A stretch of DNA of 23,106 bases from a virus, in the IMG/VR virus record IMGVR_UViG_3300013122_000399, positions 1 to 23,106 of that record; one strand, written 5' to 3'. The notes under the pieces are model-generated. The model was given only the letters and a program-made list of their open reading frames with translations. It made no database searches and was not told the origin of the DNA. The position numbers were made by a program, and so were the translations under genes. Below, in pieces: positions 5,952 to 23,106 of this stretch; the first letter of the stretch is position 1; every line of letters starts with the position of its first letter.

Positions 5952-5960
5952 CGCGCCCCC

Positions 5961-7280
5961 TCACGCCAGGAGGACCAGCCCGCGCTCGGCGCGGGTGATG
6001 GCAGTGTAGAGCCAGCGGCGGCGGTCGATTTCGCTGCGACCAAGGCCATCGTCCCAGACGATCACGTTCTCCCACTGCGAGCCTTGCGCCTTGTGGGCGG
6101 TGATTGCCCATCCGAAGGTCGCTTCGGTCAGCTTGCGCTTTTCCCGCCAGTCGCGATCATGACGCTTGGCATCGTAGGCGACGTGATCCTCGAAATGCCC
6201 CTTGTAGATGCGCAGCCGGCCCGGACGGCCGTCGCTGTCGAACGGCGTGACACGTCGTCCGTCCTCGTCATGCACAACGGCCGAGAAGTAGAGGCTGCCC
6301 TCGTCGACGATATCCTCGAGGGTCAGGAACATGCCGTTGATCAGACCGAGCGAATTGTCGTTCTTCAGGCAGATGATCTTTTCCGCCCCGCCAGTGGGCA
6401 GATATGTCCCGCCCAGCCCGGCCGCCGCGCGCATCGCGTTGTTCAGCTGGAAGCGCGTCGCGTTCAGGCCGCAGATCAGTTGCCCGCCGCGCAGCGCCTG
6501 ATCCGGCGTGATGTCGCCCTTGCGCAGCTTGGCGACATGGGCGTCGTAGACCCCGAACCCGATGGGTTCCCCCATCCGCGCCATCGTGGCGAGACGGATG
6601 ATGGCGCTTTCGGCCGCCTGGCGGTGAATCTCGGTCAGCATCACGTCGGGCGCGTCCCGGGTGAAAGCCCCTTCGCCCTTGATGGGCGGCAACTGTCCGG
6701 GATCGCCCAGCACAAGGATCGGCTTACGGAGGCTCATCAGGTCGCGGGCCATCTCCTCGCCCACCATCGACACCTCGTCCAGCACGATCAGCCGCGCATC
6801 CGCGGCATCGCTTTGCGGGTTCAGGGCGAAACGGGGATGCTTCATCGAGGACAGCGCCTGGCGCATCGCCTCGATCCCCGCCTCGGCCGCGGTCCTGTCG
6901 AAACCGGTCAGCTTGCGCGCTGCGGTCTCGGCCTCCTGCACCTTTGCGGCAGCGGCGGCGATTTCCTCCTCGGTCGCCTCGATCACCGAATAGATCAGGC
7001 TGTGGATGGTGCGGGCGGGCGTGCCCTTGCGGCTCAGGACCAGCGCAGCCTTGCCGGTGAAGGTCGCGGTCACGACGCCCGGCACGCAACGGCCGTCCTT
7101 CGCGCTGCGATGGGGTGACAGTCCAAGGTCGTCGAGGGCGAATTTCAGGACCGTGCTCTTGCCCGACCCGGCGTAGCCGAAGAGCCGGAACACTTGTTGC
7201 TCCTCGGTTCGGTTCTCGAACCAGTCGCGGACTTCGGCGATGGCGGCGGCCTGCGCGGCTGAAGGGACGAAGTCAGACAC
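5961..7280 (-). CDS. RecD-like ATP-dependent DNA helicase
   Basis: 439 residues from the GTG at 7280, chosen because GGAGG lies 7 bases upstream and GTGTCTGA overlaps the stop of the nuclease gene. A longer ATG frame to 7397 would sit inside that gene. Superfamily 1 motifs are in order: Walker A GYAGSGKST (K41), a Walker B LIVLDEVSMV, the Q-rich GDPGQLPPI motif, and C-terminal AITAHKAQGSQW and YTAITRAERG (motifs V and VI). The family includes RecD2 and phage Dda-type helicases. It probably unwinds DNA for replication or together with the nuclease encoded just upstream, a RecB/RecD-like split arrangement. Confidence 0.88.
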   Translation of the reverse strand: MSDFVPSAAQAAAIAEVRDWFENRTEEQQVFRLFGYAGSGKSTVLKFALDDLGLSPHRSAKDGRCVPGVVTATFTGKAALVLSRKGTPARTIHSLIYSVIEATEEEIAAAAAKVQEAETAARKLTGFDRTAAEAGIEAMRQALSSMKHPRFALNPQSDAADARLIVLDEVSMVGEEMARDLMSLRKPILVLGDPGQLPPIKGEGAFTRDAPDVMLTEIHRQAAESAIIRLATMARMGEPIGFGVYDAHVAKLRKGDITPDQALRGGQLICGLNATRFQLNNAMRAAAGLGGTYLPTGGAEKIICLKNDNSLGLINGMFLTLEDIVDEGSLYFSAVVHDEDGRRVTPFDSDGRPGRLRIYKGHFEDHVAYDAKRHDRDWREKRKLTEATFGWAITAHKAQGSQWENVIVWDDGLGRSEIDRRRWLYTAITRAERGLVLLA

Positions 7281-8073
7281 CGCCGCCCCTCCAGCACCGC
7301 TCCGCCCATGCGCAGGGCGCGTGCCACTTGCCACCGGCCATGCCGCCCCGACAGACGACCGCCGTGGGCTCGGTGGCCATCCGGGGCAACCATTCACCCG
7401 CCGCCGAGGCCTGGACGACCGTAACGGCGCGATCCGACATCACCTGTGCAAGGCGGGCATCGAACGGCACCAGTTCCGCATACAACTCCATCGTGTCGCG
7501 ATTCAGCGCGGTAAAGAGCGCCGGGTTGGGCAGGTCCATGTAGGCCTGATAAAGGGCGATCTGGGCGGCGTAGACGGGGCGCGCGATGCTCACACCGCGC
7601 TTGACCACATCCTTCCAGCTCGACGCCCCGAGCGCCTTGTTCTCCCAGAGGGCGGGATAGTCCATCGCGACGGGGCCGGAGACGAAGCAGCCGTCGATAT
7701 GCCCCTTGAACCGGCCCGCCATGGCCGCGAAGCCGAACTGGCGGCCATCGGGGCGCTCGGTTCGCAGGTCGAATCCGGCGATCCGGAACCAACCAGCGAC
7801 GATGTCCTCGGCCCGGTGGCCAGCCTCGAAGATCCGCAGGATGCGCGGTTCGAACTCCTGGCCTTCGTCCTTGGGGACGGCGAGGTAGTCATACTGGATC
7901 TGGCGCAGACAGTTGCGCCCGAGCCCCGAGGAACTGACATAGGTGCGGGGGCGCTCGGCGAGATTGCGCGCCGTCAGGGCCGCATCGATGGCGGATGAGA
8001 CGGCGGCGGAGATCGGCGGTCGCGGCGCGTCCTGGCCATAGATGCAGCCGGAGCCATGGTTCAGGTCGATCAT
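7273..8073 (-). CDS. PD-(D/E)XK nuclease, RecB/Cas4-like
   Basis: 266 residues from the ATG at 8073 (MIDLNHG), which overlaps the previous stop as ATGA. The nuclease core is visible as GHIDG with D127, then LWENKAL with E144 and K146 (E-x-K), and a following AQIALYQAYM helix carrying the Gln and Tyr typical of RecB-like nucleases. An N-terminal C (NCLRQIQY) and late cysteines (CRGGM, APCAWAERC) could bind an iron-sulfur cluster as in Cas4/AddB, but this is uncertain. A phage-type 5'-3' exonuclease working with the downstream helicase and the Sak4-like ATPase in recombination is the most likely role. Its distance and operon separate it from the CRISPR locus, so it is unlikely to be an adaptation Cas4. 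Confidence 0.85.
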   Translation of the reverse strand: MIDLNHGSGCIYGQDAPRPPISAAVSSAIDAALTARNLAERPRTYVSSSGLGRNCLRQIQYDYLAVPKDEGQEFEPRILRIFEAGHRAEDIVAGWFRIAGFDLRTERPDGRQFGFAAMAGRFKGHIDGCFVSGPVAMDYPALWENKALGASSWKDVVKRGVSIARPVYAAQIALYQAYMDLPNPALFTALNRDTMELYAELVPFDARLAQVMSDRAVTVVQASAAGEWLPRMATEPTAVVCRGGMAGGKWHAPCAWAERCWRGGGV

Positions 8074-8279
8074 TGGTCGCGCTCCCAGAACCCGCCAGCC
8101 TGCGCGATGCAGGTCAGCTTGTGATGCTGGGCCTCGGTCAGCCGGGCGCGCGTGCCGAATGTCTCCAGCTTCTGGCGCAGGCTCTCGCAGAACTCGACCT
8201 CGAAGTCGGTGATGGCGTTCGTTGTCGCGGCGGCGAGAAGGTCGGCCCATGTGGCGGTCTCATTGTTCAGATCGATCAT
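8070..8279 (-). CDS. Small hypothetical protein (MIDLNN)
   Basis: 69 residues, no recognised domain; predicted to be helical with an acidic middle (TDFEVEFCESLRQKLETF). The start at 8279 was chosen because TGAGGGGGC, holding the previous stop and a ribosome binding site, lies just before it, exactly as at the primase gene. Its stop overlaps the nuclease start (ATGA), so its translation is coupled to that of the nuclease. A small accessory or inhibitor of the nuclease is a guess only. Confidence 0.65.
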   Translation of the reverse strand: MIDLNNETATWADLLAAATTNAITDFEVEFCESLRQKLETFGTRARLTEAQHHKLTCIAQAGGFWERDQ

Positions 8280-8289
8280 GGCGGCCCCC

Positions 8290-8754
8290 TCAGAACGGAA
8301 TCGGATCGTCATGGGCGGTGCCGGTGCGCTCCTTGCGCGCGCCCTGCGCCAGCATGCTGTCGACGTAGCCGGTGACGGCCGCCTCGATCAGCCGGTCGAT
8401 ATCGGCGGCGGTGCGATGGAAGAAGGGCTCCATGAGCCCGAGGTCGGTCAGCGCTTCGGCAAAGAGCGCCCGCGCGTCGCGGATCGCCTGTGCCTCGCGG
8501 GCGGTCTTGTCGATCATGCCATTGTTCCTTTGGGCGATTGCACTGCCCACGTCCTGACAGCGGAGCGAGCAGAAGCGGTGATAGGGGTGAGGAGCGGTGG
8601 CCGAAGGCCAGTGATCGGTCCGGGGGACCGATCGCAGCGACGAACGGTTGTGCTGGAGCCGGTGGACGTAGCCGAAGCCGCGGGCTTCCCGCGCGCAGAC
8701 GGCGCAAAGCGCTACCCCAGCAAGAAATTCGCGATCGGGTCTTCGGGCGGCCAT
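8290..8754 (-). CDS. DUF6511-like zinc-binding protein
   Basis: 154 residues from the ATG at 8754 (MAARRPD), overlapping the upstream gene by 43 bases. Early CAVC and later FCSLRC give two cysteine pairs about 40 residues apart, a zinc-finger arrangement. The C-terminal part, from the internal MIDKT near 8517, is helical and rich in Ala and acidic residues and ends DDPIPF. From memory this layout (a zinc finger, RFCS-RCQD, then M-I-D and a helical tail) matches DUF6511, found in alphaproteobacterial phage regions. Function is unknown. A separate short protein starting at the ATG at 8517 is possible but less likely. Confidence 0.6.
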   Translation of the reverse strand: MAARRPDREFLAGVALCAVCAREARGFGYVHRLQHNRSSLRSVPRTDHWPSATAPHPYHRFCSLRCQDVGSAIAQRNNGMIDKTAREAQAIRDARALFAEALTDLGLMEPFFHRTAADIDRLIEAAVTGYVDSMLAQGARKERTGTAHDDPIPF

Positions 8755-9032
8755 CCCGCCCGCTGAAGCTTCTCGGTATGCATCACGATCCAGCGCGAGA
8801 TCGCATTGCTGGCCATGGCCTCGAGGTCGCCGAGGGTAAGGCTTGCGATGGGGTGGTGCAGTCTTCCTCGGGCCTCGAGCCATGTTCCGATCTCCAGCGC
8901 GGCGGCGCGCGTCACATGCGCCTGCCATTCGTCGGGGGTCATGGGCCGGTCGCCCGGCCCAACCCCATCGGGCGCAGTGCTGCGTGATCGCACGGAACCA
9001 CCCGACCGCCGCTTCTGCCGCGCCTCAGCCAT
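8712..9032 (-). CDS. Small hypothetical protein in replication cassette
   Basis: 106 residues from the ATG at 9032, which overlaps the stop of the preceding gene as ATGGCTGA, the same 8-base overlap used at 2242-2249. An alternative start at 8942 (MTPDEWQAH, 76 residues) removes a basic, poorly structured N-terminal stretch and may be the true one; neither has a good Shine-Dalgarno. The conserved-looking part is MTPDEWQAHVTRAAALEIG to the C-terminal PEDPIANFLLG, mostly helical. No domain is recognised. Confidence 0.55.
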   Translation of the reverse strand: MAEARQKRRSGGSVRSRSTAPDGVGPGDRPMTPDEWQAHVTRAAALEIGTWLEARGRLHHPIASLTLGDLEAMASNAISRWIVMHTEKLQRAGWPPEDPIANFLLG

Positions 9033-9774
9033 TGAGCCAGGCGGGCATCGCGGGGGCGCCCGGCGCGGCGGATGCCGATGCCTGCGTCGCGGCAGCCGCT
9101 GTGGGTACGGTCTGCGCGCCCCAGGCCGGAGCGGTCGACGAAGCGGGCTGCGTTGCCGCGCCCCAGGCCGGTGCCGGGGCCTGCCAGCCCGGCGCCGCGA
9201 CGCTCGCGGCCTTGCGCGGCGGGGCGTTGACCGGATCGGGCGGGACGGTTTCGCCACGCATGATGGCGGCATGGTGCGGCTCGTCGGGCAGAACGACGTT
9301 GGCGATGCGGTTCTGGTCGCGGTACTGCGGGTTGGAGGCGGGCTCCACCATGATGCGGGCGGCGAAGACGATGCCCTCGAGATGCCGCAGGCCGGGCAGA
9401 ACCCGCTTGGCCTTGGCGGCGGGGCTTTCGTCCCTGGGATCAAGGCCAAGGGCGCTGTCCACGATGGCGCGAAAGGTGGATTTCGAGATCTTCCAGCCGA
9501 TGGACTGGCCTTTCTCGTCCAGCTTGCCGCCCGCCACGGTGAAGCTCTGCCAGAACTTGCGGCGGGCATGGGGGCCCTCGACCACGGTGAATTCGCAGTC
9601 GAGCATACGGGCATCGCTGGACTGCGAAGCCTTCAGAAGCCCCGCATCCGCCGGGGTCGCACCGTTCACGCCACCGGGGCGAATGGTCAGCCGCACCTTG
9701 GCGAAGGTGCCGTCCGGGATCAGTTCCCCGATGGGGGCCATCTGCGGCTGGGCGTCGTTCAGATCGTAGCTCAT
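9025..9774 (-). CDS. Phage DNA-metabolism protein, possibly DUF669/SSB-like
   Basis: 249 residues from the second ATG (9774, MSYDLND), picked over the ATG at 9780 because AAGGA then stands at the normal 7-base spacing. Residues up to about 170 look like a compact beta-rich domain (FAKVRLTIRPGG, LDCEFTVVEGPHARRKFWQS, IGWKISKSTFRAIVDSALGL) of the kind seen in phage DUF669 and related proteins beside recombination ATPases. The remaining 75 residues are an Ala/Pro/Gln/Trp-rich, repeat-like tail (APAWGA occurs twice) ending PAWLNG, similar in style to the flexible tail of single-strand DNA-binding proteins. It lies directly after the Sak4-like gene. A single-strand DNA-binding or recombination accessory role is inferred. 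Confidence 0.65.
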   Translation of the reverse strand: MSYDLNDAQPQMAPIGELIPDGTFAKVRLTIRPGGVNGATPADAGLLKASQSSDARMLDCEFTVVEGPHARRKFWQSFTVAGGKLDEKGQSIGWKISKSTFRAIVDSALGLDPRDESPAAKAKRVLPGLRHLEGIVFAARIMVEPASNPQYRDQNRIANVVLPDEPHHAAIMRGETVPPDPVNAPPRKAASVAAPGWQAPAPAWGAATQPASSTAPAWGAQTVPTAAAATQASASAAPGAPAMPAWLNG

Positions 9775-9793
9775 GGTCATGTCCTTTCAGGGA

Positions 9794-10651
9794 TCAGGAG
9801 GCGAAAGCGGATTGGTGGGGAGCGCGGCCGTCGATGCGGGCGAGCAGCGCGCCAAGGTCGGGCGGTTCGGTCAGGTCGAGGCGGCCGGACCGGTCCTTGG
9901 CGGGAAGGCCCCAGGGGTTGCCCGACTTGCAGACAAGGCGGCGTTCGGTGGCGGTCTCGTCCAGCACCCAGCCACCCTCGGTATCGCGTGCGAAGAGGTG
10001 CATCGACACGACCTGGTCCACGATGCCGGGCAACTCACGCCCGGCCTTGCTGCCTTCCATCTGCGGTTGCCAGGTGACAGTGCCGAAGTCGTCGGTCACC
10101 TTTTCCAGCACGCCGACAAGGATCACGGTCTTGCCGCGCGCATGCTGAAGGTGCTTCAGCGCCTGGATCACCTCGCGCCCCAGAAGCCCATAGGCGCCCC
10201 GGACATCCGGCTTGCCGGTCCGGTCCGAGAAGGCCTCGGGCTGCTGGCGGGCATAGGCCATCGCCTGCCGCGTCAGATCTGTGATCGAGTCGACGAAGAC
10301 GATGCGGCGCGCGGCGAGGAAGGCTTCGATGCCGCTGTCGCGGTGCTGGGCCTGCAGCCACGCGTGCCGTTCGGTCCCGTACCAGGACTGCGGATGCTGC
10401 GCCGGATCCGGCCCGCCGATCAGCACCGCAAGGTCGCGGAAATCGGTGAAGCTGCGCACCGGGATCGATGCGCCGCGCCAGTCCTGCACCGATTTCATCC
10501 CGGCCTCGAGGTCGAGGCAGACGGTTTCCTCGGCCGGCAGGGACTTCAGGAGCGTGGTCTTGCCCACGCCCGGTGGGCCGAAGATGGCGAGAGAGGTCTT
10601 GTTCTCGGCGGCCGAGAGACGTTCGTCGGCGGTGATGATGCGGAAAGTCAT
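9794..10651 (-). CDS. Sak4-like RecA-fold ATPase (AAA_24)
   Basis: 285 residues from the ATG at 10651, preceded by GGAGAA at good spacing. The long frame upstream of it (to 10954) lies over another gene and is not coding. Walker A is FGPPGVGKTTL (K31) and Walker B is RRIVFVDSITDL, followed by an ATPase core with ILVGVLEKVTDD. This is the compact RecA-like family that phages use for single-strand annealing (Sak4) with an SSB-type partner. The C-terminal part holds a short acidic/basic tail. With the downstream DNA-binding-like protein, the PD-(D/E)XK nuclease and the resolvase it makes a complete phage recombination set. Confidence 0.85.
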   Translation of the reverse strand: MTFRIITADERLSAAENKTSLAIFGPPGVGKTTLLKSLPAEETVCLDLEAGMKSVQDWRGASIPVRSFTDFRDLAVLIGGPDPAQHPQSWYGTERHAWLQAQHRDSGIEAFLAARRIVFVDSITDLTRQAMAYARQQPEAFSDRTGKPDVRGAYGLLGREVIQALKHLQHARGKTVILVGVLEKVTDDFGTVTWQPQMEGSKAGRELPGIVDQVVSMHLFARDTEGGWVLDETATERRLVCKSGNPWGLPAKDRSGRLDLTEPPDLGALLARIDGRAPHQSAFAS

Positions 10652-10752
10652 GGGGTTCTCCGAAAGATTGAAAGGGGCGCGGCGGCGGGGGTGACCGGGT
10701 GCCGAAGGGGAACCTGCCCGGCGTTGCCGCTCGGGCGTCCCGCCGCCGCGCG

Positions 10753-11271
10753 TCACCGGTCTCGGGTCTCGAGCCGGAACACGGGTTTGCCGGTGGTCTC
10801 GGACCGGGCGGCGGCGAAGCCTTCGCGCATGGCGTCGGGCCAAGCCCCAAAACGGCGTTCCGGCACGCGGTAGGCGATCTCGAGATACTGGGTCGGATCG
10901 TCGCCCGCCTCGCGGATCCGGGTCGCCATCGCGGCCAGCCGGTCCTGATCCCACGTGACCTTCTTCGGCAGATCGGCAATCACGACCACGCCCGCATCCT
11001 CGATCCGGACGGTGCCGGAGGTCTTGCCTTGGGCGGAACGCTCGGCCTCGGTCGCCGCGCCATAGCGCTGCGCCAGTGCCGCCTCGAAACGGTCCTTCAG
11101 GCGCTTGACCCGGGCGGTCTCGGCCGCTGCCTCGTCCTGAAGCGCGAGAAGCAGCGCAGCGGGCATGTCGGCGATCTCGCCTATGGACAGCCGGTCGAGG
11201 TCATCGAGCGTCGGCATGTTGCCGGCGCGCCCCCCGCTCGGCGCATCGGTGCTTGGGAACGGCATGGCCAT
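10753..11271 (-). CDS. Hypothetical phage protein, coiled-coil N-terminal half
   Basis: 172 residues. After a flexible start, residues 25-75 form a likely coiled coil (LALQDEAAAETARVKRLKDR and onward). The C-terminal half is a beta/alpha domain with VTWDQDRLAAMATRI and YRVPERRFGAWPDAMREGF. This layout, a helical segment followed by a K-V-x-W-D-Q motif, recalls small proteins placed next to recombination ATPases in phages (DUF7173-like, from memory). It starts at TGATG with the stop of the previous gene, so translation is coupled. The 101 bases between its stop and the Sak4-like gene hold no recognisable feature. Confidence 0.6.
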   Translation of the reverse strand: MAMPFPSTDAPSGGRAGNMPTLDDLDRLSIGEIADMPAALLLALQDEAAAETARVKRLKDRFEAALAQRYGAATEAERSAQGKTSGTVRIEDAGVVVIADLPKKVTWDQDRLAAMATRIREAGDDPTQYLEIAYRVPERRFGAWPDAMREGFAAARSETTGKPVFRLETRDR

Positions 11272-11663
11272 CAGCGCCCCTCCCGCTTCAAGGCCGCGTC
11301 AACGGCGCGGTCCGTGCCGAGAGCCCCGGCCTCGCGGGCCAGGCGGTGGAGCCGTTCGAGTGCCGAGGAGCGGCGGATCGCGGCCGACACGTCGGCATTC
11401 GCCGCCACGACGGCGAAGGCGATGTCGTCGATAGTCGCCATCTCGATCAGCAGCGGCTCGGTCTCGTTCCCCTCGCGCCACGGCGCGGGGATCGCATCCG
11501 GCAAGTCGTCCAGGCTGTGGAAGGCACGGCGGAGCCGCGTCATCAAGTTCGGCAGCCGGGAGGGCTGCGGCTCCGTTGTCGCGGTCTCGGCCGATTTTCC
11601 GGCGATGGCGAAGTAAAGGGACGGCGGGAGCCAATCCCCGATCCAGGCAAGCACGGCGCGCAT
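11271..11663 (-). CDS. Hypothetical protein
   Basis: 130 residues, no recognised family. The N-terminus (MRAVLAWIGDWLPPSLYFAI) is hydrophobic and could be a membrane or amphipathic helix, followed by a Thr/Pro-rich linker and a mainly helical C-terminal half. Both ends are coupled by TGATG junctions (11663 and 11271), so it is certainly part of the operon. An internal ATG (MTRLRRAFHS) would give a shorter soluble form. Confidence 0.55.
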   Translation of the reverse strand: MRAVLAWIGDWLPPSLYFAIAGKSAETATTEPQPSRLPNLMTRLRRAFHSLDDLPDAIPAPWREGNETEPLLIEMATIDDIAFAVVAANADVSAAIRRSSALERLHRLAREAGALGTDRAVDAALKREGR

Positions 11664-12019
11664 CAGGCGGCCTCCTCTGTCGCGATAAGTTGGGAAAGCG
11701 GGATCGGCGCATGGCGCGGTTTGGTCCGCGCGATGGCCAGATAGGCAAAGCGGTCTGGGCCGACCCGGACCTGCACCAGATGCACCAGCGCCGCCTCGAA
11801 GGCGCGGTGGGCGGCACTGGCCAGCGCCCCCAGCCTGCGGCGTTCCGGCTCCGGCAAGGTGGAAATCACCGCCGTGGCATCGATGCCGAGGAACCCGCGA
11901 TGATACTCGAGGCGGTCGCCCGGCATGGCCTGACCGATCCAGGCGCAGAACTCGATGTCGGTGAGCGGCCGGGGCTTGGCCGGGGTGAAGGCGTTGGGGT
12001 GCATGACGAACATCTCCAT
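11663..12019 (-). CDS. Hypothetical protein
   Basis: 118 residues, soluble and mostly helical, no recognised domain. It starts 13 bases after the sigma-like gene with GAGG before the ATG, and ends in TGATG with the next gene. The middle (LPEPERRRLGALASAAHRAF) resembles short alphaproteobacterial phage-region proteins of unknown function. Position directly after a regulator suggests an early gene of the cassette. Confidence 0.55.
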   Translation of the reverse strand: MEMFVMHPNAFTPAKPRPLTDIEFCAWIGQAMPGDRLEYHRGFLGIDATAVISTLPEPERRRLGALASAAHRAFEAALVHLVQVRVGPDRFAYLAIARTKPRHAPIPLSQLIATEEAA

Positions 12020-15024: not shown

Positions 15025-15228
15025 ATGAAACGCCCCAATCCCCTGCCACCCGACGAGATGACCGCTGCCGAGCGCCGAGCCGAGTTGTGCGCGTTGCTGG
15101 CGCTCGGGCTGGTCCGCCTGACGCAGCGCGAGCGGGGTGAACCTTCTGACGAAACTGGAGAAATTCGCCTACACTATCTGGCCGACCGATGCCGTCATGC
15201 AACCCCGAACCCAACGGAGACCACATGA
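15025..15228 (+). CDS. Small protein of serine-recombinase module
   Basis: 67 residues beginning MKRPNPLPPDEMTAAERRAE, no recognised domain. A short protein of this type is regularly found directly before DUF2924 and recombinase genes in alphaproteobacteria (established context). Its last codons overlap the next ATG (ATGA, 15225-15228). The helical middle (RRAELCALLALGLVRL) and the cysteine-containing tail are all that can be said about structure. Confidence 0.7.
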   Translation: MKRPNPLPPDEMTAAERRAELCALLALGLVRLTQRERGEPSDETGEIRLHYLADRCRHATPNPTETT

Positions 15229-15680
15229 CGACGCACGACCTCATCCCCGCGCGCCTGGCCGCGCTGAAGACCACCCCGACACCAGACCTGAAGGCGCAGT
15301 GGCGCGAGTTGTTCGACAGCGAACCGCCGCCCTTCAACCGGCGCTACCTCGAATCCCGCCTGGCCTATCGCATCCAGGAACTCGCCTATGGCGGGTTGAA
15401 GCCCGAGACCGTCCGGCGCCTGGAACGGCTTGGCGAGGAACTGGACGGCGGCGACAAGAAGAAGCGCAGCATCCGCGCCGACCGCGACCGTCCCATCACC
15501 GGCACCCGGCTACTGCGCGAATGGCGGGGCGTCGAGTGCGTAGTGACCGTCACCGCCGACGGCTTCGAGTGGCAGGGGCGGCCATACAAGTCGCTGTCTG
15601 CCATCGCGCGCGCCATCACCGGCACCCGCTGGAACGGCTGGGTGTTCTTCGGCCTCAAGAACCACAGGGGGCGGACATGA
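15225..15680 (+). CDS. DUF2924 protein
   Basis: 151 residues from MTTHDLIPARLAAL, with GGAG before the ATG. The family signature is visible: LKAQWRELFDSEPPPFNRRY early, RLAYRIQELAYGGL, then TGTRLLREWRGVECVVTV, GFEWQGRPYKSLSAIARAI and TGTRWNGWVFFGL. DUF2924 proteins are almost always encoded beside a large serine recombinase in this group of bacteria and are thought to assist it, probably as a DNA-binding or directionality partner (inference). The stop overlaps the recombinase start (ATGA, 15677-15680). Confidence 0.9.
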   Translation: MTTHDLIPARLAALKTTPTPDLKAQWRELFDSEPPPFNRRYLESRLAYRIQELAYGGLKPETVRRLERLGEELDGGDKKKRSIRADRDRPITGTRLLREWRGVECVVTVTADGFEWQGRPYKSLSAIARAITGTRWNGWVFFGLKNHRGRT

Positions 15681-16987
15681 CGAAGCCCGTCGTCCGCAAG
15701 CTCCGCTGCGCGGTCTACACCCGGAAATCCTCCGAGGAAGGGCTGGAGCAGGAGTTCAACAGCCTCCACGCCCAACGCGAGGCCTGCGAGGCTTACATCG
15801 CCAGCCAACGGTCCGAGGGCTGGGTGCTGGTCCGGGATCAGTATGACGACGGCGGCATATCGGGCGGCACACTGGAACGCCCCGGCCTGAAGCGGTTGAT
15901 GGCCGACATCGAGGACGGGCTGGTCGACGTGGTGGTGGTCTACAAGATCGATCGCCTCAGCCGCTCGCTGGCCGACTTCGCCAAGCTGGTTGAGGTGTTC
16001 GACCGCAATGGCGTCACCTTCGTCTCGGTCACGCAGTCGTTCAACACCACCACCTCCATGGGGCGGTTGACGCTGAACATCCTGCTGTCCTTCGCCCAGT
16101 TCGAGCGCGAGGTGACGGCTGAGCGCATCCGCGACAAGGTCGCCGCCAGTCGCAAGAAGGGGATGTGGATGGGCGGTGTGCCGCCCTTCGGCTACCGGGT
16201 AGAAAACCGCAAGCTGCTGGTGGACGAGACCGCCGCCGCGCATGTGCGCTGGATCTTTGACCGCTTCATCGAAATCGGGTCCTGCACGGTGCTGGCCCGC
16301 GAGGTCAGCGCGCGGGGCCTCGGCACGCCGCGCGGCAACCGGATCGACAAGAAGTACCTCTACCGGATGCTGTCAAACCACGCCTACCTCGGCGAGGCGG
16401 TGCACAAGGGCGCGAGCTACCCGGGCGAGCATGACGCCATCATCGACCGCGAGACATGGGACCGCGTCCACGCCATCCTGCAGGAGAGCCCCCGCAAGCG
16501 CGCCGCACGCACACGCGCCGATACGCCCGCGCTGCTGAAGGGGCTGCTATTCGGCCCAGATGGCGCGGCGTTTTCGCCAACGCATACACGCAAGGGCGGT
16601 CGGCTCTACCGCTACTATGTCAGCCAGACCGTGCTGAAGCATGGCGCGGGGTCATGCCCTATCGGCCGCGTGCCAGCGGGCGAGATCGAGGCTGCGGTCG
16701 TTGACCAACTCCGTGCCGTGTTCCGGCAGCCAGAGATTGTTGCGGGCACGTGGAAGGCGGCGCGCGCCCGGGCCGACGACATCACCGAGGCCGACACTCG
16801 CGTGGCCCTGCAGCAGCTCGACCCGCTGTGGGACGAACTCTTCCCCGCCGAGCAGGCGCGCATCGTCACGCTGCTGGTCGAGCGCGTCGATATCGGCGCG
16901 AACGGGCTCAACTTCCGGCTCCGGATGGACGGCCTCGGAGGGCTCGCGCGCGAGATGCTGGCTGGCAGCATCGGAGCAGCGGCATGA
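15677..16987 (+). CDS. Large serine recombinase
   Basis: 436 residues. The resolvase/invertase catalytic domain spans about 10-155 with YTRKSSEEG (S18 the likely nucleophile), QYDDGGISGGTLERPG and the KIDRLSRSLADF motif. A Recombinase domain follows (about 165-275, VPPFGYRVENRKLLVD to LYRMLSNHAYLG), then a zinc-ribbon-like part (LLKGLLFGPDGAAFSPTHT) that has lost most zinc cysteines. The C-terminus is short and lacks an obvious long coiled coil, making it smaller than classic large integrases. It would integrate, excise or invert DNA by cutting with a phosphoserine linkage. It may mobilise this island, although no att core was found. Confidence 0.9.
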   Translation: MTKPVVRKLRCAVYTRKSSEEGLEQEFNSLHAQREACEAYIASQRSEGWVLVRDQYDDGGISGGTLERPGLKRLMADIEDGLVDVVVVYKIDRLSRSLADFAKLVEVFDRNGVTFVSVTQSFNTTTSMGRLTLNILLSFAQFEREVTAERIRDKVAASRKKGMWMGGVPPFGYRVENRKLLVDETAAAHVRWIFDRFIEIGSCTVLAREVSARGLGTPRGNRIDKKYLYRMLSNHAYLGEAVHKGASYPGEHDAIIDRETWDRVHAILQESPRKRAARTRADTPALLKGLLFGPDGAAFSPTHTRKGGRLYRYYVSQTVLKHGAGSCPIGRVPAGEIEAAVVDQLRAVFRQPEIVAGTWKAARARADDITEADTRVALQQLDPLWDELFPAEQARIVTLLVERVDIGANGLNFRLRMDGLGGLAREMLAGSIGAAA

Positions 16988-17367
16988 ACCGCAGGGCGCC
17001 GATCCCCGAGACGGTCACGCTTCACGTCCCGTTCCGCGTCGTGAAGCGCGGCGGGCGCAAGGAAATGCAGTTGCCAGAAGGCGGGACGCGCCCGGCGAGG
17101 ACCGACAGCACGCTGGTCAAGGCGCTGGCGCGTGCATTCCGCTGGAAGCGGATGCTGGAATCGGGCGAGTTCGCCACCATCGCCGAACTGGCCGAAAGGG
17201 AGGGCATCGCGCCCTCCTACATGACCCGGGTCCTGCGTCTGACGCTGCTTTCGCCCGACATCGTCGACGCGATATTGGATGGGAAGCAGGGATCCGACAT
17301 GACGTTGGCGCAGGTGGTAGAACCGTTTGCGGATGAATGGGCGGCGCAACGGCAAACCCTCGTCTAA
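16984..17367 (+). CDS. HTH protein of the recombinase operon
   Basis: 127 residues, starting as ATGA on the recombinase stop. The central part (ATIAELAEREGIAPSYMTRV, about 62-85) is a helix-turn-helix of the ParB/KorB kind, after a basic N-terminal half (VVKRGGRKEMQL). A protein like this usually follows the recombinase in such modules. It probably binds DNA near the recombination site or regulates the operon. The name and exact role are unknown. Confidence 0.75.
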   Translation: MNRRAPIPETVTLHVPFRVVKRGGRKEMQLPEGGTRPARTDSTLVKALARAFRWKRMLESGEFATIAELAEREGIAPSYMTRVLRLTLLSPDIVDAILDGKQGSDMTLAQVVEPFADEWAAQRQTLV

Positions 17368-17544
17368 TCGCTATGCGACCGACCCTTACCGGTCATTCAC
17401 TCTGCATTGCCTCCGCTGCGGTGGGGTCCGCTGCTCCGGACTTTCGCTGCAGGTGCAAAGTCGAACCGATGACGAACTGGTAGTCTGCGGGGCAGTACTG
17501 GCGTTGCCTCAAGGTCAGGACAATTAACCACAATCTTCGGGCAT
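17368..17544. other. Intergenic region before the CRISPR locus
   Basis: About 180 bases without a convincing gene, between the HTH stop and the tracrRNA terminator. It contains several CCGGT/GGTCC words and an AATTAACCAC stretch, but no repeat of the array, no promoter and no open frame with a ribosome binding site. It may be a decayed end of the recombinase module. Confidence 0.4.
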
Positions 17545-17630
17545 CAAAAAGGAAACGCGCCCCGCAGGACGCGCTTCAATGTGGTGCTACTTCGAGCTTG
17601 TTAACGGCTCGACCGCGAATTCTGAACAAT
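17545..17630 (-). ncRNA. tracrRNA, divergent from cas9
   Basis: Recognised from its anti-repeat. Plus-strand 17600-17627 matches the 5' part of the CRISPR repeat (crRNA sense) at 24 of 27 positions with a one-base insertion, including an unbroken 12-base block CGAATTCTGAAC. The transcript must therefore run on the minus strand to be complementary to the crRNA. After the anti-repeat comes a short linker region, then a strong hairpin and a U tract (17546-17576). The expected RNA is about 85 nucleotides: anti-repeat, about 23 linking bases, terminator hairpin. It pairs with the repeat part of crRNA to load Cas9. The 5' end is inferred from a weak promoter and is not proven. Confidence 0.8.
17546..17576 (-). 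terminator. tracrRNA 3' terminator hairpin
   Basis: On the minus strand, AAGCGCGTCC and GGGCGCGTTT pair (10 pairs with some G-U) around a TGCG tetraloop, followed by CCTTTTT. This is a textbook intrinsic terminator and also the usual 3' hairpin of type II tracrRNAs. Confidence 0.8.
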
Positions 17631-17633
17631 ATG

Positions 17634-17662
17634 AGTGTTGCACGTCCTTGCTGCACTTTCAA
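17634..17662 (-). promoter_or_regulatory. Candidate tracrRNA promoter
   Basis: On the minus strand TTGAAA (17662-17657) and AACACT (17639-17634) are separated by 17 bases. Transcription would start near the first base of the anti-repeat, giving an RNA that begins GUUCAG. The -35 is good (5 of 6), the -10 weak (3 of 6). It lies inside the 13-bp repeats. Confidence 0.35.
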
Positions 17663-17675
17663 GTTGCAATTTCTC
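17637..17675. repeat. Three 13-bp repeats in cas9/tracrRNA divergent region
   Basis: GTTGCACGTCCTT, GCTGCACTTTCAA and GTTGCAATTTCTC follow each other without gap; TGCA occurs at an exact 13-base period (17639, 17652, 17665). They lie between the tracrRNA start and the cas9 ribosome binding site and could be regulator sites. Confidence 0.5.
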
Positions 17676-17717
17676 CCAGCATTCCAGAGACTTTCGCAAG
17701 TTGTATTGGGGAAGAAG

Positions 17718-20700
17718 ATGCGCCTAGGTCTCGACATCGGAACGAATTCCATCGGCTGGTGGCTCTATGAAACCAACGGAACTGAAACGAATGCCCGGAT
17801 CATAAGTGTCATCGACGGTGGTGTCCGCATCTTCTCGGACGGTCGCGACCCGAAATCAGGGGCTTCTCTTGCTGTCGACCGGCGGGCCTCCCGCGCCATG
17901 CGCCGCCGCCGGGACCGCTATCTGCGCCGCCGTACGACGCTGATGAAGGTACTCGCCAAGGTCGGCCTGATGCCAACCGACCCGGAAGAGGCCAAGGCAT
18001 TGGATCTGCTTGATCCCTATGAATTGCGGGCAACGGGTTTGGATAAGGCTTTGCCGCTGACACAACTGGGACGGGCATTCTTTCACCTCAACCAGCGGCG
18101 CGGCTTCAAGTCGAATCGTAAGACAGATCGCGGCGACAATGAAAGCGGCAAGATCAAGGACGCCACCGCGCGGCTGGATCAGGCGATCATGGCCAGCGGT
18201 GCTCGCACCTATGGCGAGTTCCTTCATATGCGTCGCCAGCGGGCCAGCGATCCGCGCCATGTGCCGACCGTGCGCACCCGCCTGTCCGTCGCCAATCGGG
18301 ACGGGCCGGATGGCAAGGAAGAAGCCGGGTACGACTTCTACCCGGACCGAAAACATCTGGAGGAGGAGTTTCACAAGCTCTGGGCGACACAGGCGGGTTA
18401 TCATTCTGAATTGACTTACGAATTGCGCGATTTGGTCTTTGAAAAGATTTTCTATCAGCGCCCACTCAAGGAACCGGAAGTCGGTCTGTGCCTTTTCTCC
18501 GGCTACGATAACATTCCCTCTGACGAGCGGCGCCTCCCCAGGGCCCACCCGCTGACCCAGCGCCGCGTGCTTTATGAAACCGTGAACCAGTTGCGCGTCA
18601 CAGCGGACGGGCGCGAAACCCGACCGCTGACGCGCGAGGAACGTGATCAGATCATTCACGCGCTTGACAACAAGAAACCAACAGCATCGCTGACATCAAT
18701 GGTCATGAAATTGCCCGCGCTGGCGAAGGTGCTGAAACTGCCCGACGGCGAACGCTTCACGCTGGAAACCGGGGTGCGCGATTCAATCGCCTGCGATCCG
18801 GTCCGGGCCAGCCTGTCGCATCCCGATCGTTTCGGCCCGCGCTGGTCCACGCTGGACGACGAGGCGCAATGGGACGTGGTTTCCCGCATCGGCAAGGTGC
18901 AGAGCGATGCGGAATATGCGGCGCTGGTAAAGTGGCTGATGGATAACCATGCGCTCGACCGTGACCATGCCGAGGCCGCCGCGCGTGCGCCGCTGCCCGA
19001 AGGATACGGGCGGTTGGGGCTGACCTCGACCATCCGCATTCTGGAGAAGCTGGAGGCGGCTGTCGCCACCTATGCAGACGCCGTCGCCGCTTGCGGCTGG
19101 CACCATTCGGATCAGCGCACAGGTGAATGCCTCGACCGTCTGCCTTATTACGGCGAAGTTCTGGAACGGCATGTCATACCCGGCAGCTACAACCCGCAGG
19201 ATGACGACGTAACCCGCTATGGCCGGATTACCAATCCGACCGTCCATATCGGGCTTAATCAGCTTCGGCGGCTAGTGAATAAAATCGTCGAGAGCCATGG
19301 CAAACCTGACCAGATTGTCGTGGAACTGGCGCGGGAGCTGAAGCAATCCGAACAGCAAAAAAAGGACGCCATGCGGAGTATCCGTGAGGCAACAGATGCG
19401 GCCGTAAAGCGGAGCGAAAAACTCGAAGATCTTGGCATTGAGGATAGCGGACGCAATCGGATGCTCCTTCGACTCTGGGAGAATCTTAATCCCGACGACA
19501 TCATGCGGCGCTTTTGTCCCTATACTGGAGAGCGTATTTCGGCCGCTATGATCTTCGATGGCTCCTGCGATGTGGATCACATCCTGCCTTATTCGCGAAC
19601 GCTCGATGACAGTTTCGCCAACCGCACGCTGTGCCTCAAGGAGGCCAACCGCGAAAAGCGGAACCAGACCCCGTGGGAGGCCTGGGGCGACACCCCAAAA
19701 TGGCACGCCATCGAGGCCAATCTGAAGAACCTGCCCGACAACAAACGTTGGCGTTTCGGCCCGGACGCGATGGAGCGGTTCGAAGGGGAAAACGATTTCC
19801 TCGACCGAGCACTGGTCGATACCCAGTATCTCGCCCGGATTTCCCGCACCTACCTGGACACGCTCTTTACCGAAGGCGGCCATGTTTGGGTTGTCCCCGG
19901 ACGCCTGACCGAGATGCTGCGACGTCATTGGGGGCTGAACTCGCTATTGAGCGATGCGGAGCGCGGTGCGGTCAAGGCCAAAAATCGCACCGATCACCGC
20001 CACCATGCCATTGACGCTGCTGTGGTGGCTGCCACCGACCGCAGCCTGCTGAACCGGATCAGCCGTGCCGCAGGGCACGGGAAAGATGCGGGCCAGTCTG
20101 CCGAACTCATCGCCCGCGACACGTCGCCGCCGTGGGAAGGGTTTCGCGACGATATACGCGTGCAACTCGGCAAGATCATCGTCAGTCACCGCGCTGATCA
20201 TGGTCGAATCGACCGGGAAGGGCGCAAAAAAGGCAAGGACAGCACGGCGGGGAAGTTGCACAACGACACTGCCTATGGCGTGGTCGATGCTACGACCGTA
20301 GTCAGCCGCACTCCATTACTCTCGCTGAAGCCCGGCGATATCGCCGTGACCCCAAACGGCAAGAATATCCGCGATCCGCAACTGCAAAAGGCGCTGGAAA
20401 CCGCAACACGTGGCAAGGAAGGTAAAGCTTTTGAGGCGGCGCTGCGCGATTTCGCAGCCAAACCCGGCCCTTATCAGGGGCTGCGCCGGGTGCGACTGAT
20501 CGAGACCTTACAGGAAAGCGCCCGTGTCGAAATCGGCACCCGCCCCGATGGCGGCCCGCTCAAGGCCTACAAGGGGGACAGCAACCATTGTTACGAACTC
20601 TGGCGTCTGCCGGACGGCAAGGTAAAAGCGCAGGTGGTTACCACGTACGAGGCCCATTCCGGGCCCGAGAAGCGCCCCCATCCGGCGGCTAAACGCCTGC

Positions 20701-20960
20701 TGCGCGTATTTAAGTGCGACATGGTGGCATTGGAACGGGAGGGTGAGACGATCTTTGGTTACATTCAGAAACTGGATATCGCCCACGGCCTCTATATTGC
20801 TCCTCATAATGAAGCAAATTCAGATGCGCGCAATCGTGACAAATCTGATCCGTTCCGGTTTATTCAGATGGGCGCCGGGCCAATGCTGAAGGCCGGTATT
20901 CGCCGTGTTTTCGTCGATGAAATCGGTCGTCTTCGGAACGGGCACGTAAGGCCGCGCTGA
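17718..20960 (+). CDS. cas9: Cas9 endonuclease, type II-C
   Basis: 1080 residues from the ATG at 17718, which has GGGGAAG just before it and begins directly with RuvC-I (MRLGLDIGTNSIGWWLYE, D6). A frame extending to 17598 has a non-Cas9 N-terminus and overlaps the tracrRNA. In order: RuvC-I; arginine-rich bridge helix (about 54-75, RAMRRRRDRYLRRR); recognition lobe; RuvC-II with VVELARELKQ (E536); HNH with CDVDHILPYS (D620, H621, later N644); RuvC-III with HHAIDAAVVA (H763, D766); then the wedge and PAM-interacting part. All nuclease residues are present, so the enzyme should cut both DNA strands guided by crRNA and tracrRNA. The length is typical of compact II-C enzymes, and only cas1 and cas2 follow. 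Confidence 0.97.
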   Translation: MRLGLDIGTNSIGWWLYETNGTETNARIISVIDGGVRIFSDGRDPKSGASLAVDRRASRAMRRRRDRYLRRRTTLMKVLAKVGLMPTDPEEAKALDLLDPYELRATGLDKALPLTQLGRAFFHLNQRRGFKSNRKTDRGDNESGKIKDATARLDQAIMASGARTYGEFLHMRRQRASDPRHVPTVRTRLSVANRDGPDGKEEAGYDFYPDRKHLEEEFHKLWATQAGYHSELTYELRDLVFEKIFYQRPLKEPEVGLCLFSGYDNIPSDERRLPRAHPLTQRRVLYETVNQLRVTADGRETRPLTREERDQIIHALDNKKPTASLTSMVMKLPALAKVLKLPDGERFTLETGVRDSIACDPVRASLSHPDRFGPRWSTLDDEAQWDVVSRIGKVQSDAEYAALVKWLMDNHALDRDHAEAAARAPLPEGYGRLGLTSTIRILEKLEAAVATYADAVAACGWHHSDQRTGECLDRLPYYGEVLERHVIPGSYNPQDDDVTRYGRITNPTVHIGLNQLRRLVNKIVESHGKPDQIVVELARELKQSEQQKKDAMRSIREATDAAVKRSEKLEDLGIEDSGRNRMLLRLWENLNPDDIMRRFCPYTGERISAAMIFDGSCDVDHILPYSRTLDDSFANRTLCLKEANREKRNQTPWEAWGDTPKWHAIEANLKNLPDNKRWRFGPDAMERFEGENDFLDRALVDTQYLARISRTYLDTLFTEGGHVWVVPGRLTEMLRRHWGLNSLLSDAERGAVKAKNRTDHRHHAIDAAVVAATDRSLLNRISRAAGHGKDAGQSAELIARDTSPPWEGFRDDIRVQLGKIIVSHRADHGRIDREGRKKGKDSTAGKLHNDTAYGVVDATTVVSRTPLLSLKPGDIAVTPNGKNIRDPQLQKALETATRGKEGKAFEAALRDFAAKPGPYQGLRRVRLIETLQESARVEIGTRPDGGPLKAYKGDSNHCYELWRLPDGKVKAQVVTTYEAHSGPEKRPHPAAKRLLRVFKCDMVALEREGETIFGYIQKLDIAHGLYIAPHNEANSDARNRDKSDPFRFIQMGAGPMLKAGIRRVFVDEIGRLRNGHVRPR

Positions 20961-21019: not shown

Positions 21020-21931
21020 ATGGATCAGATCGTGGATATCTGCACGGATGGGCGACACCTGTCGCGTGAACGGGGCTTTCTGAAAGTTAGCGAAGGGGCC
21101 GAGGAAATCGGCCGGATTCCACTCGACCAGATCGCCGCGGTGATCGTCCATGCTCATGGCACCACGTGGTCGACCTCGCTACTGGCCGAACTGGCCGATC
21201 GTGGAGCGCCGGTTGTCATCTGCGGGACCAACCACGCGCCACGGTCTGTGCTTATGCCGCTTGAAGGACATTATGCCCAGGGGCGGCGGCTTCGTGCCCA
21301 GTGGCAGGCCAAGGTGCCGCTCATGAAACAAGCGTGGAAGCAGGTTGTCATCTGCAAGATCACCATGCAGGCGGCCGCGCTGGAAGCAATGGGAGAGGCC
21401 CATGCGCCGGTTGCCATGCTGCGGCGCAAAGTCACAAGCGGCGACAGCACCAACGCAGAGGCCCAGGCCGCCCGCTACTACTGGCCGCGCATGATGGGCG
21501 AGGATTTCCGCCGCGACCGCACCGCTCCCGACTGCAACGCGTTGTTGAACTACGGCTATACCGTGCTGCGGGCCGCCGCCGCACGCGCCGTCGTGGCCGC
21601 GGGTTTGCACCCGACCATCGGGCTGCACCATTCCAACCGGGGCAATGCTTTCGCATTGGCCGACGATCTGATGGAACCGTTCCGCCCCCTAGTCGATTGC
21701 TGCGTGCGTTCTCTCGTGGCCCGCAACGGAGCGGACGTCGATACCGAGGCCAAGCAAACCCTGACCAAGCTTATCGCACTCGATCTGCCCTTGGGCGACG
21801 GGCTGACGCCGGTTTCCGTCGCGCTAGGTAGGCTCGCCATCTCTCTTGGGCAGAGTTTCGAAGCCGGTGCCTTAAACCTCGCCCTGCCTGCACCACCGGA
21901 TGCGCTCATCTTCACGGGGCTGGGGGCATGA
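21020..21931 (+). CDS. cas1: Cas1 integrase, type II
   Basis: 303 residues. With Cas2 it forms the complex that captures protospacers and joins them to the leader-proximal repeat. The metal-binding triad is visible: E147 in TNAEAQAARYYW, H204 in IGLHHSNRGN and E219 in DDLMEPFRPLVD. The N-terminal beta domain (residues about 1-85) precedes the helical catalytic domain. The length is normal for type II Cas1. It is linked to cas2 by an ATGA overlap. No Csn2 or Cas4 gene is in the window, as expected for subtype II-C. Confidence 0.97.
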   Translation: MDQIVDICTDGRHLSRERGFLKVSEGAEEIGRIPLDQIAAVIVHAHGTTWSTSLLAELADRGAPVVICGTNHAPRSVLMPLEGHYAQGRRLRAQWQAKVPLMKQAWKQVVICKITMQAAALEAMGEAHAPVAMLRRKVTSGDSTNAEAQAARYYWPRMMGEDFRRDRTAPDCNALLNYGYTVLRAAAARAVVAAGLHPTIGLHHSNRGNAFALADDLMEPFRPLVDCCVRSLVARNGADVDTEAKQTLTKLIALDLPLGDGLTPVSVALGRLAISLGQSFEAGALNLALPAPPDALIFTGLGA

Positions 21932-22272
21932 CCGTCGCCCCTGTTTTTTTGTCTGGATACCGGATCATGTGGATACTCGTGATGTTCGACCTGCCCACCG
22001 ACACCAAACCGCAGCGCAAGGCTGCGACGGATTTTCGGAATTTCCTTCTGGATGAAGGGTTCGAGCGCAGCCAGTTCTCGGTCTATGCGCGCTTCGTGAA
22101 TGGCAAGGAGGCGTTTCAATCCCGCGTGACCCGGATCGAGCGACATCTACCCGACAAGGGGGACATTCTGATCCTCAACTTCACCGACCGACAATATCGT
22201 GATATCGTGCATTTCTCGGATCAGGGTCGACGGGCGGCCCGAAAGAATCCGGAGCAACTGGCGCTGTTTTGA
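21928..22272 (+). CDS. cas2: Cas2, CRISPR adaptation protein
   Basis: 114 residues with the ferredoxin-like start MWILVMFDLPTDTK (D21 is the conserved acidic residue) preceded by 13 extra residues from the ATG at 21928. This ATG overlaps the cas1 stop (ATGA) and was kept, though the internal ATG at 21967 could also be used. SQFSVYARFV and the C-terminal LILNFTDRQYRDI complete the fold. It ends NPEQLALF, a tail usual in II-C. Cas2 dimers bridge two Cas1 dimers; nuclease activity is not required for spacer acquisition. Confidence 0.95.
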   Translation: MTVAPVFLSGYRIMWILVMFDLPTDTKPQRKAATDFRNFLLDEGFERSQFSVYARFVNGKEAFQSRVTRIERHLPDKGDILILNFTDRQYRDIVHFSDQGRRAARKNPEQLALF

Positions 22273-22344: not shown

Positions 22345-22353
22345 AGCTTAGCA
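22345..22353 (-). promoter_or_regulatory. Repeat-embedded extended -10 promoter (first of twelve)
   Basis: Each repeat ends, in the crRNA sense, with TGCTAAGCT: an extended -10 (TGn) plus TAAGCT. The same position in the Neisseria meningitidis II-C repeat has TGCTACAAT, where every repeat drives its own crRNA. The same element occurs in every copy, at plus-strand positions 1-9 of each repeat. Activity is inferred. Confidence 0.5.
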
Positions 22354-23106
22354 GTTCAGAATTCGAGGTCCAGCCGCAACCGTCCACAATGGCGATCTGC
22401 GCACGGGCGTAGCTTAGCAGTTCAGAATTCGAGGTCCAGCCGCAACGAAACGACCTGCTCGATCTTGTCGCGCTCGTAGCTTAGCAGTTCAGAATTCGAG
22501 GTCCAGCCGCAACCCGAACTCCAAGTAATAGGCATAGGCCAATAGCTTAGCAGTTCAGAATTCGAGGTCCAGCCGCAACAGGCCCGCAGCGCAGCGCTCA
22601 CCGCCTCGAAGCTTAGCAGTTCAGAATTCGAGGTCCAGCCGCAACTCCTAAGCGCAGGGGGATTGCATGATCTACAGCTTAGCAGTTCAGAATTCGAGGT
22701 CCAGCCGCAACCGGCCGAGGCCGGGGCCAAGCTGGCCGCATAGCTTAGCAGTTCAGAATTCGAGGTCCAGCCGCAACAGAGCCGCCCGATCACCCTCTTC
22801 CTGTTCCAGCTTAGCAGTTCAGAATTCGAGGTCCAGCCGCAACGTGGCGCTTCCCGTCCTGCTGGTCAGCAGGAGCTTAGCAGTTCAGAATTCGAGGTCC
22901 AGCCGCAACCGATGGCAGCTTGTATAACCGACTTCGCAAAGCTTAGCAGTTCAGAATTCGAGGTCCAGCCGCAACTCGCGTGATCCAGTTCATCGCGGTA
23001 GTGCTAGCTTAGCAGTTCAGAATTCGAGGTCCAGCCGCAACAGGCGCGACAAGTGGAGCTGCGCTTGCCAGAGCTTAGCAGTTCAGAATTCGAGGTCCAG
23101 CCGCAA
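22345..23106 (-). CRISPR. Type II-C CRISPR array, at least 12 repeats
   Basis: Twelve identical 36-base repeats are visible; the last lacks its final base because the window ends. In the crRNA sense (minus strand) the repeat starts GTTGCGGCTGGACC and ends CTGAACTGCTAAGCT. Repeat starts: 22345, 22411, 22478, 22544, 22610, 22676, 22742, 22808, 22874, 22940, 23006, 23072. Eleven spacers are 30 bases each except spacer 2 (22447-22477), which is 31. All spacers differ. No repeat is degenerate, so the ancestral end is not marked at the cas2 side by a decayed repeat. The array continues beyond 23106. By eye no spacer has an exact match elsewhere in the window. Confidence 0.97.

Follow-up and report, generated by a model that had tools for sequence, protein, structure and literature searches.

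The locus described here raises the question of which RNA would serve the Cas9 encoded on a viral contig, and how the gene for that RNA is arranged with respect to cas9. The stretch of DNA analysed (hereafter the window, 23,106 nt) is an IMG/VR virus contig, and its record ends inside a CRISPR array. An original prediction had proposed a tracrRNA gene on the minus strand upstream of cas9, and this proposal is borne out by pairing, covariation, position and conservation. The features on which the argument draws are as follows.

17546-17577, minus strand: intrinsic terminator; stem 17577-17552 with 11 pairs, then CTTTTTG (five T)
17586-17597, minus strand: nexus hairpin (GCU-CGAAGU-AGC), with covarying pairs in 19 distinct rows
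17600-17627, minus strand: anti-repeat, with the predicted tracrRNA +1 at 17627; recognised by match to the repeat, duplex and conservation in relatives
17634-17639, minus strand: candidate tracrRNA -10 box AACACT (weak), placed by position; 3/6 consensus, A at -11 and T at -7 informative
17657-17662, minus strand: candidate tracrRNA -35 box TTGAAA, with its start exactly 35 nt before the anti-repeat, a position shared by most relatives
17664-17692, plus strand: candidate cas9 promoter TTGCAA-17-GAGACT, 7/12 consensus letters, back to back with the tracrRNA promoter
17718-20960, plus strand: cas9 (1080 aa), ATG at 17718; TIGR01865, 3e-161
21020-21931, plus strand: cas1; TIGR03639, 2e-69
21928-22272, plus strand: cas2; TIGR01573, 1.5e-20
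22345-23106, minus strand (crRNA strand): CRISPR array, 12 repeats of 36 nt, the last cut by the record end

The predicted tracrRNA gene and its setting

The window carries a type II-C gene set, in which cas9 is followed by cas1, cas2 and the array, and csn2 and cas4 are absent from the operon as covered by the record; a phage-type Cas4-domain exonuclease (7273-8250) lies far from the cas operon and belongs to the prophage part. Genes for phage replication are found in the left part of the window, together with a serine integrase and its companion gene, which ends at 17367 and adjoins the tracrRNA. The set of cas9, cas1 and cas2, together with a tracrRNA that has its own promoter, is shared with the II-C system described for Campylobacter jejuni (PMC3656092), and the array opposite to the cas operon and the minimal gene set recall Neisseria meningitidis and Pasteurella multocida as described in PMC3936727. 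The latter account has the location and direction of the tracrRNA differ between II-C members; the tracrRNA gene of the window diverges from cas9 directly upstream of it.

A comparison with locus L001, whose Cas9 is 96% identical, bears on the left border of this region. The L001 counterparts of the integrase and its companion (window 15137-17367) show 77-79% protein identity, whereas the DNA from about 17336 on, with tracrRNA and cas9, is far more alike. This jump in similarity suggests a recombination or attachment junction near 17336. L001 comes from a MAG labelled Planctomycetaceae and is probably a mis-binned alphaproteobacterial contig.

When window positions 1-22340 were compared on both strands with the CRISPR repeat, the top match outside the array was found at 17605-17627 on the plus strand, so that RNA from the minus strand would be complementary to the crRNA. 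This anti-repeat, originally placed at 17600-17627, scored 38, against 25 for the next match, 22 on the other strand and 32 for the best of 60 mononucleotide-shuffled windows; no better anti-repeat exists elsewhere within the 23 kb record. It also ranks first in duplex energy (-41.9, the second-ranked 45-nt tile reaching -38.8), and as the DNA is G+C-rich, energy alone discriminates weakly. An Rfam search of the window gave no match at gathering scores. Co-folding of the anti-repeat with repeat positions 1-27 produced 25 pairs (24 Watson-Crick and one G-U), two 1x1 mismatches and one bulged tracrRNA base. The duplex had been predicted with 24 of 27 matches, one bulge and three mismatches; the bulge stands, and the mismatches are two, a G-U pair having been counted as a third. 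Towards the spacer end of the duplex, relatives retain a mismatch and the bulged base, as one would expect of a bulge recognised by Cas9.

A terminator scan of the region found one terminator where 0.5 would be expected from shuffles, which is unremarkable alone. Across relatives the terminator covaries, and in the alignment 98.9% of the structure cells of nexus and terminator are paired, and 10 of 15 hairpin pairs show a change of both partners in at least one sequence. None of 500 shuffles gave covariation as high, and slid registers pair in 34-52%. The terminator thus holds up as an 11-pair stem with a T run that covaries in relatives, and the predicted transcript, from 17627 to about 17546 (~82 nt), agrees with the length of roughly 85 nt first given.

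GTDB genomes supplied 18 loci with relatives of the Cas9, and viral contigs another 2. In all 20 loci that cover the region, the window among them, the tracrRNA core is found upstream of cas9 on the minus strand (L028, which begins within cas9, was left out of this count); CRISPR arrays are present in 17 of the 20 and also in L028. Among 12 distinct repeat/anti-repeat pairs, the own pairs average -41.1 kcal/mol against -34.0 when permuted, and none of 20,000 permutations matches the own pairing; the anti-repeat and the repeat therefore evolve together. A covariance model of the tracrRNA, searched in genome samples that overlap, gave matches at E up to 1e-8 in the genus of L017 (10 of 125 genomes), its family (24 of 394) and its order (22 of 390), and at E up to 1e-6 in its class (22 of 385).

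At L062/L065 (G180:C19) a single cas9 is preceded by two tracrRNA-like copies at a distance of 344 nt from each other, and L040 (G104:C43) has a tracrRNA-like element with two repeat-like copies just upstream and no cas9 motif within 1300 nt. The viral contig L027 (1847-15200) bears a complete locus of tracrRNA, cas9, cas1, cas2 and array at about 5823-11281, flanked by portal and capsid genes on one side and a large terminase gene on the other; the nine spacers compared recur in L028, which stems from another metagenome and has the terminase on the same side. L027 and L028 represent a phage-borne Cas9 system.

We infer transcription, start sites, processing and Cas9 binding from sequence, pairing, covariation, position and conservation, and on these grounds the element of the window is almost certainly the canonical short tracrRNA of a type II-C CRISPR-Cas9 locus. 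In the mechanism proposed, RNA polymerase would start at 17627, and the RNA would begin with the anti-repeat and end about 82 nt on at the terminator. Its first 28 nt would form a duplex with repeat positions 1-27 of each crRNA, in whose lower stem a G-G mismatch, which is conserved, and one bulged U would remain, and the nexus and terminator hairpins would be bound by Cas9.

Candidate promoters and predicted transcripts

The candidate tracrRNA promoter consists of TTGAAA, a 17-nt spacing and AACACT. A promoter scan of the window region did not include it in its list, and the promoter claimed earlier is instead borne out by the placement of the -35 box in relatives. Among the first 20 loci the best -35 lies exactly 35 nt before the first base of the anti-repeat in 16; the -10 region is loose, with A at -11 and T at -7 standing out. 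A -35 box of at least 5/6 was found in the zone from -45 to -28 in 49 of 73 loci, starting at exactly 35 in 35 of them, and in the 69 loci long enough for a control the tested zone had such a box in 47, against 11 for the control zone. (L073, with a region under 46 nt, was left out of the promoter and gap comparisons.) From this usual distance of 35 nt, transcription is predicted to start at 17627, and with +1 at the anti-repeat the tracrRNA would need no 5' processing.

On the other strand, the candidate cas9 promoter, in the form TTGCAA-17-GAGACT or AAGACT, is common to the window, L001, L002 and L027. L002 belongs to an isolate with the short layout, Aliiroseovarius sp. Z3. A single base separates the predicted -35 box of the tracrRNA (17662-17657) from the candidate one of cas9 (17664-17669), and the predicted transcripts run away from each other with no overlap. 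The spatial linkage once claimed between the tracrRNA 5' region and cas9 accordingly holds for position, as a back-to-back layout. The weakness of the candidate cas9 promoter would fit a different arrangement, in which the promoter serving cas9 lies upstream of the tracrRNA gene and the cas9 leader, antisense to the whole tracrRNA, titrates it. Clear TTGAC -35 boxes between tracrRNA and cas9 in L003, L010 and L013 argue against such a leader, which we consider unlikely.

In crRNA orientation the repeat reads GTTGCGGCTGGACCTCGAATTCTGAACTGCTAAGCT, and its last 9 nt, which would remain unpaired, carry a -10-like box (TAAGCT) outside the part paired with the tracrRNA. T31, A32 and T36 are invariant in 11 of 11 distinct repeats, with variation at positions 28-30 and 33-35; the -35-like TGGACC within the repeat reaches only 4/6, whereas the TAnnnT tail is invariant in the 11 repeats. 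A -10 box at the repeat end is therefore predicted, as in C. jejuni, where crRNAs are reported to start at position five of each spacer (PMC3656092); starts inside each spacer rest there on dRNA-seq and northern blot and are predicted in the window. Repeat promoters are treated as the II-C pattern in PMC12080349. With the box in the unpaired tail, each crRNA of the window probably starts a few bases into the spacer from its own promoter, and RNase III would then be needed at most at the 3' end.

The array of the window has 11 whole spacers (10 of 30 nt and one of 31). Comparison of the array with phages, and of three 20-nt spacer ends (of the 11 spacers) with viral contigs, found nothing, and the spacers taken as guides against region 17501-18000 gave at best 9/12 letters, which is not notable. 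An 18-nt stretch shared by one window spacer and the L017 cas9 falls at the spacer end farther from the seed and was treated as chance.

Decayed repeats and candidate self-matching guides in relatives

In some relatives the interval between tracrRNA and cas9 holds more than promoters. The first cases were the Paracoccus loci L010, L013, L017 and L018, in which a decayed repeat, in crRNA orientation, lies on the tracrRNA strand just upstream of the tracrRNA. A screen of 74 distinct loci found a decayed repeat with a score of at least 28, and none of 60 shuffles as high, in 18 rows; left out of the screen were L038, L040, L061, L076, L082 and L083 (no cas9 motif found), L079 and L093 (no tracrRNA core) and six exact duplicates. 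Removal of four copies (L031-L034, of L018, L010, L017 and L013, left out of the guide-target tests) and addition of L038, restored by hand for the guide-target, folding and heptamer analyses, gave 15 loci. For L017 and L038 the point where the decayed repeat begins was chosen manually, as it was for L055 in the swap test. All 18 rows have a tracrRNA-cas9 gap of 158-439 nt, against a gap of at most 144 nt in 45 of 53 loci without a decayed repeat.

In 10 of the 15 loci, the 12 nt that precede the decayed repeat agree in at least 10/12 letters with a site in the tracrRNA-cas9 interval; nine of the ten sites are on the tracrRNA strand and that of L039 is on the other. Candidate guides and targets swapped between loci reach this level in 5 of 210 pairs, and own matching beats all 20,000 permutations, counts that are inflated by relatedness within Paracoccus; outside Paracoccus, own pairs match in 5 of 8 and swapped pairs in 1 of 56, and 6 of 20,000 permutations are as good. 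The putative guide and its target covary between loci. No target of at least 10/12 was found between tracrRNA and cas9 in L055, L018, L017, L063 and L070, which do have a decayed repeat. The matched site is followed by GGAAA in L010, L013, L036, L037 and L038 (Paracoccus group), by GGGGTTG in L048 and L075, by AGGATTGA in L003 and by AGTTTTAC in L077; the motif is not constant between loci.

A spacer in the array of L010 (about 11755-11784) resembles a tail gene of a Dinoroseobacter phage (MK882925.1, 11047-11074; E = 0.5). On the PAM side the phage match has CGGAAAGC, which resembles the GGAAA of the Paracoccus-group cas9-promoter sites, offset by one base, and as a hint to the PAM this flank is only suggestive. 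Phage searches with the L014 and L003 arrays gave no match, and comparison of the L018 array with plasmids gave no protospacer that was taken up.

Ten loci were folded as one strand, and in most of them the decayed repeat and the anti-repeat form a hairpin while the terminator is preserved. In L077, L003, L055 and L075 the predicted tracrRNA promoter is clearly itself a decayed repeat. In 39 anchored loci without a recognised decayed repeat no such origin of the promoter was seen, identity being 0.285 in the expected register and up to 0.334 in others; a TTGC match 7 nt before the -35 occurs in 7 of these 39, against 3 in all at other distances. The heptamer GTCCACA, with an enrichment of about nine-fold relative to all loci together, was observed on the tracrRNA strand some 90-200 nt upstream of the tracrRNA in the long-gap relatives L003, L010, L013, L038, L048, L055, L074 and L077, and in some loci it is the loop of a hairpin of 5-6 pairs with differing stems.

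A repeat-like segment with a 5' stretch matching a site at the locus's own cas9 promoter is the predicted tracr-L natural single-guide layout, here in type II-C relatives. It is like the tracr-L described for Streptococcus pyogenes (PMC11417352, PMC8616872) in that, in these relatives, about 9-12 nt at the front of a putative long tracrRNA form match the cas9 promoter region beside a PAM-like motif; the subtype is different, and the window is without such an element. Tracr-L was regarded as a trait of II-A; as stated in PMC8616872, it was not found in other subtypes, and a literature search by title and abstract opening (mostly open-access papers) found no description of tracr-L in type II-C. 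On balance, we lean towards the tracrRNA-cas9 interval being a self-control switch in a Rhodobacterales type II-C clade, where the decayed repeat adjoins or forms the tracrRNA promoter, the longer transcript would be a natural single guide, and its 9-12-nt guide would park Cas9 on its own promoter without cutting. A tree of Cas9 N-termini with 68 rows requires 7 changes of the trait, and supported branches force no fewer than 6 of them. Since the trait is scattered over the tree, and one carrier, L003 from Loktanella sp. IMCC34160, falls inside the wider group of the window, it would have been lost (or gained) repeatedly.

The window itself might, like these relatives, make a longer minus-strand transcript from inside cas9, a natural single guide repressing cas9 beside the short form, and a promoter-like site does lie on the minus strand at 17827-17799. 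However, the 200 nt upstream gave -16.0 against the anti-repeat, with 95 of 100 shuffles as low, and no decayed repeat is present there, the best upstream repeat match scoring 15 with 45 of 60 shuffles as high. The 50 loci without a decayed repeat show no own-target signal, and the value of the window is 7/12. On these energy, repeat-score and own-target tests a natural single guide in the window was rejected, and a long form there is very improbable. With a short gap of 90 nt and no repeat-like segment upstream, the window appears to be a version without the proposed cas9 brake. It is scarcely conceivable that the element is a decayed array repeat or scaRNA-like regulator and not a tracrRNA, for although it resembles the repeat and scaRNAs are predicted in other type II systems according to PMC6199352, it is antisense to the repeat, has a nexus and terminator and covaries with the repeat.

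Meaning for the locus and its family

Read as the short tracrRNA, the element of the window is a further II-C tracrRNA of a well-known sort, and its exact extent (17627 to about 17546) and its pairing with the repeat are the requirements for testing this Cas9. The natural-guide layout of the relatives has a wider interest, beyond this ordinary finding. If it is true that type II-C systems brake their own cas9 by a natural single guide, then self-regulation of Cas9 would be no peculiarity of II-A, and related loci with and without the brake would offer a natural comparison of immunity against self-damage.
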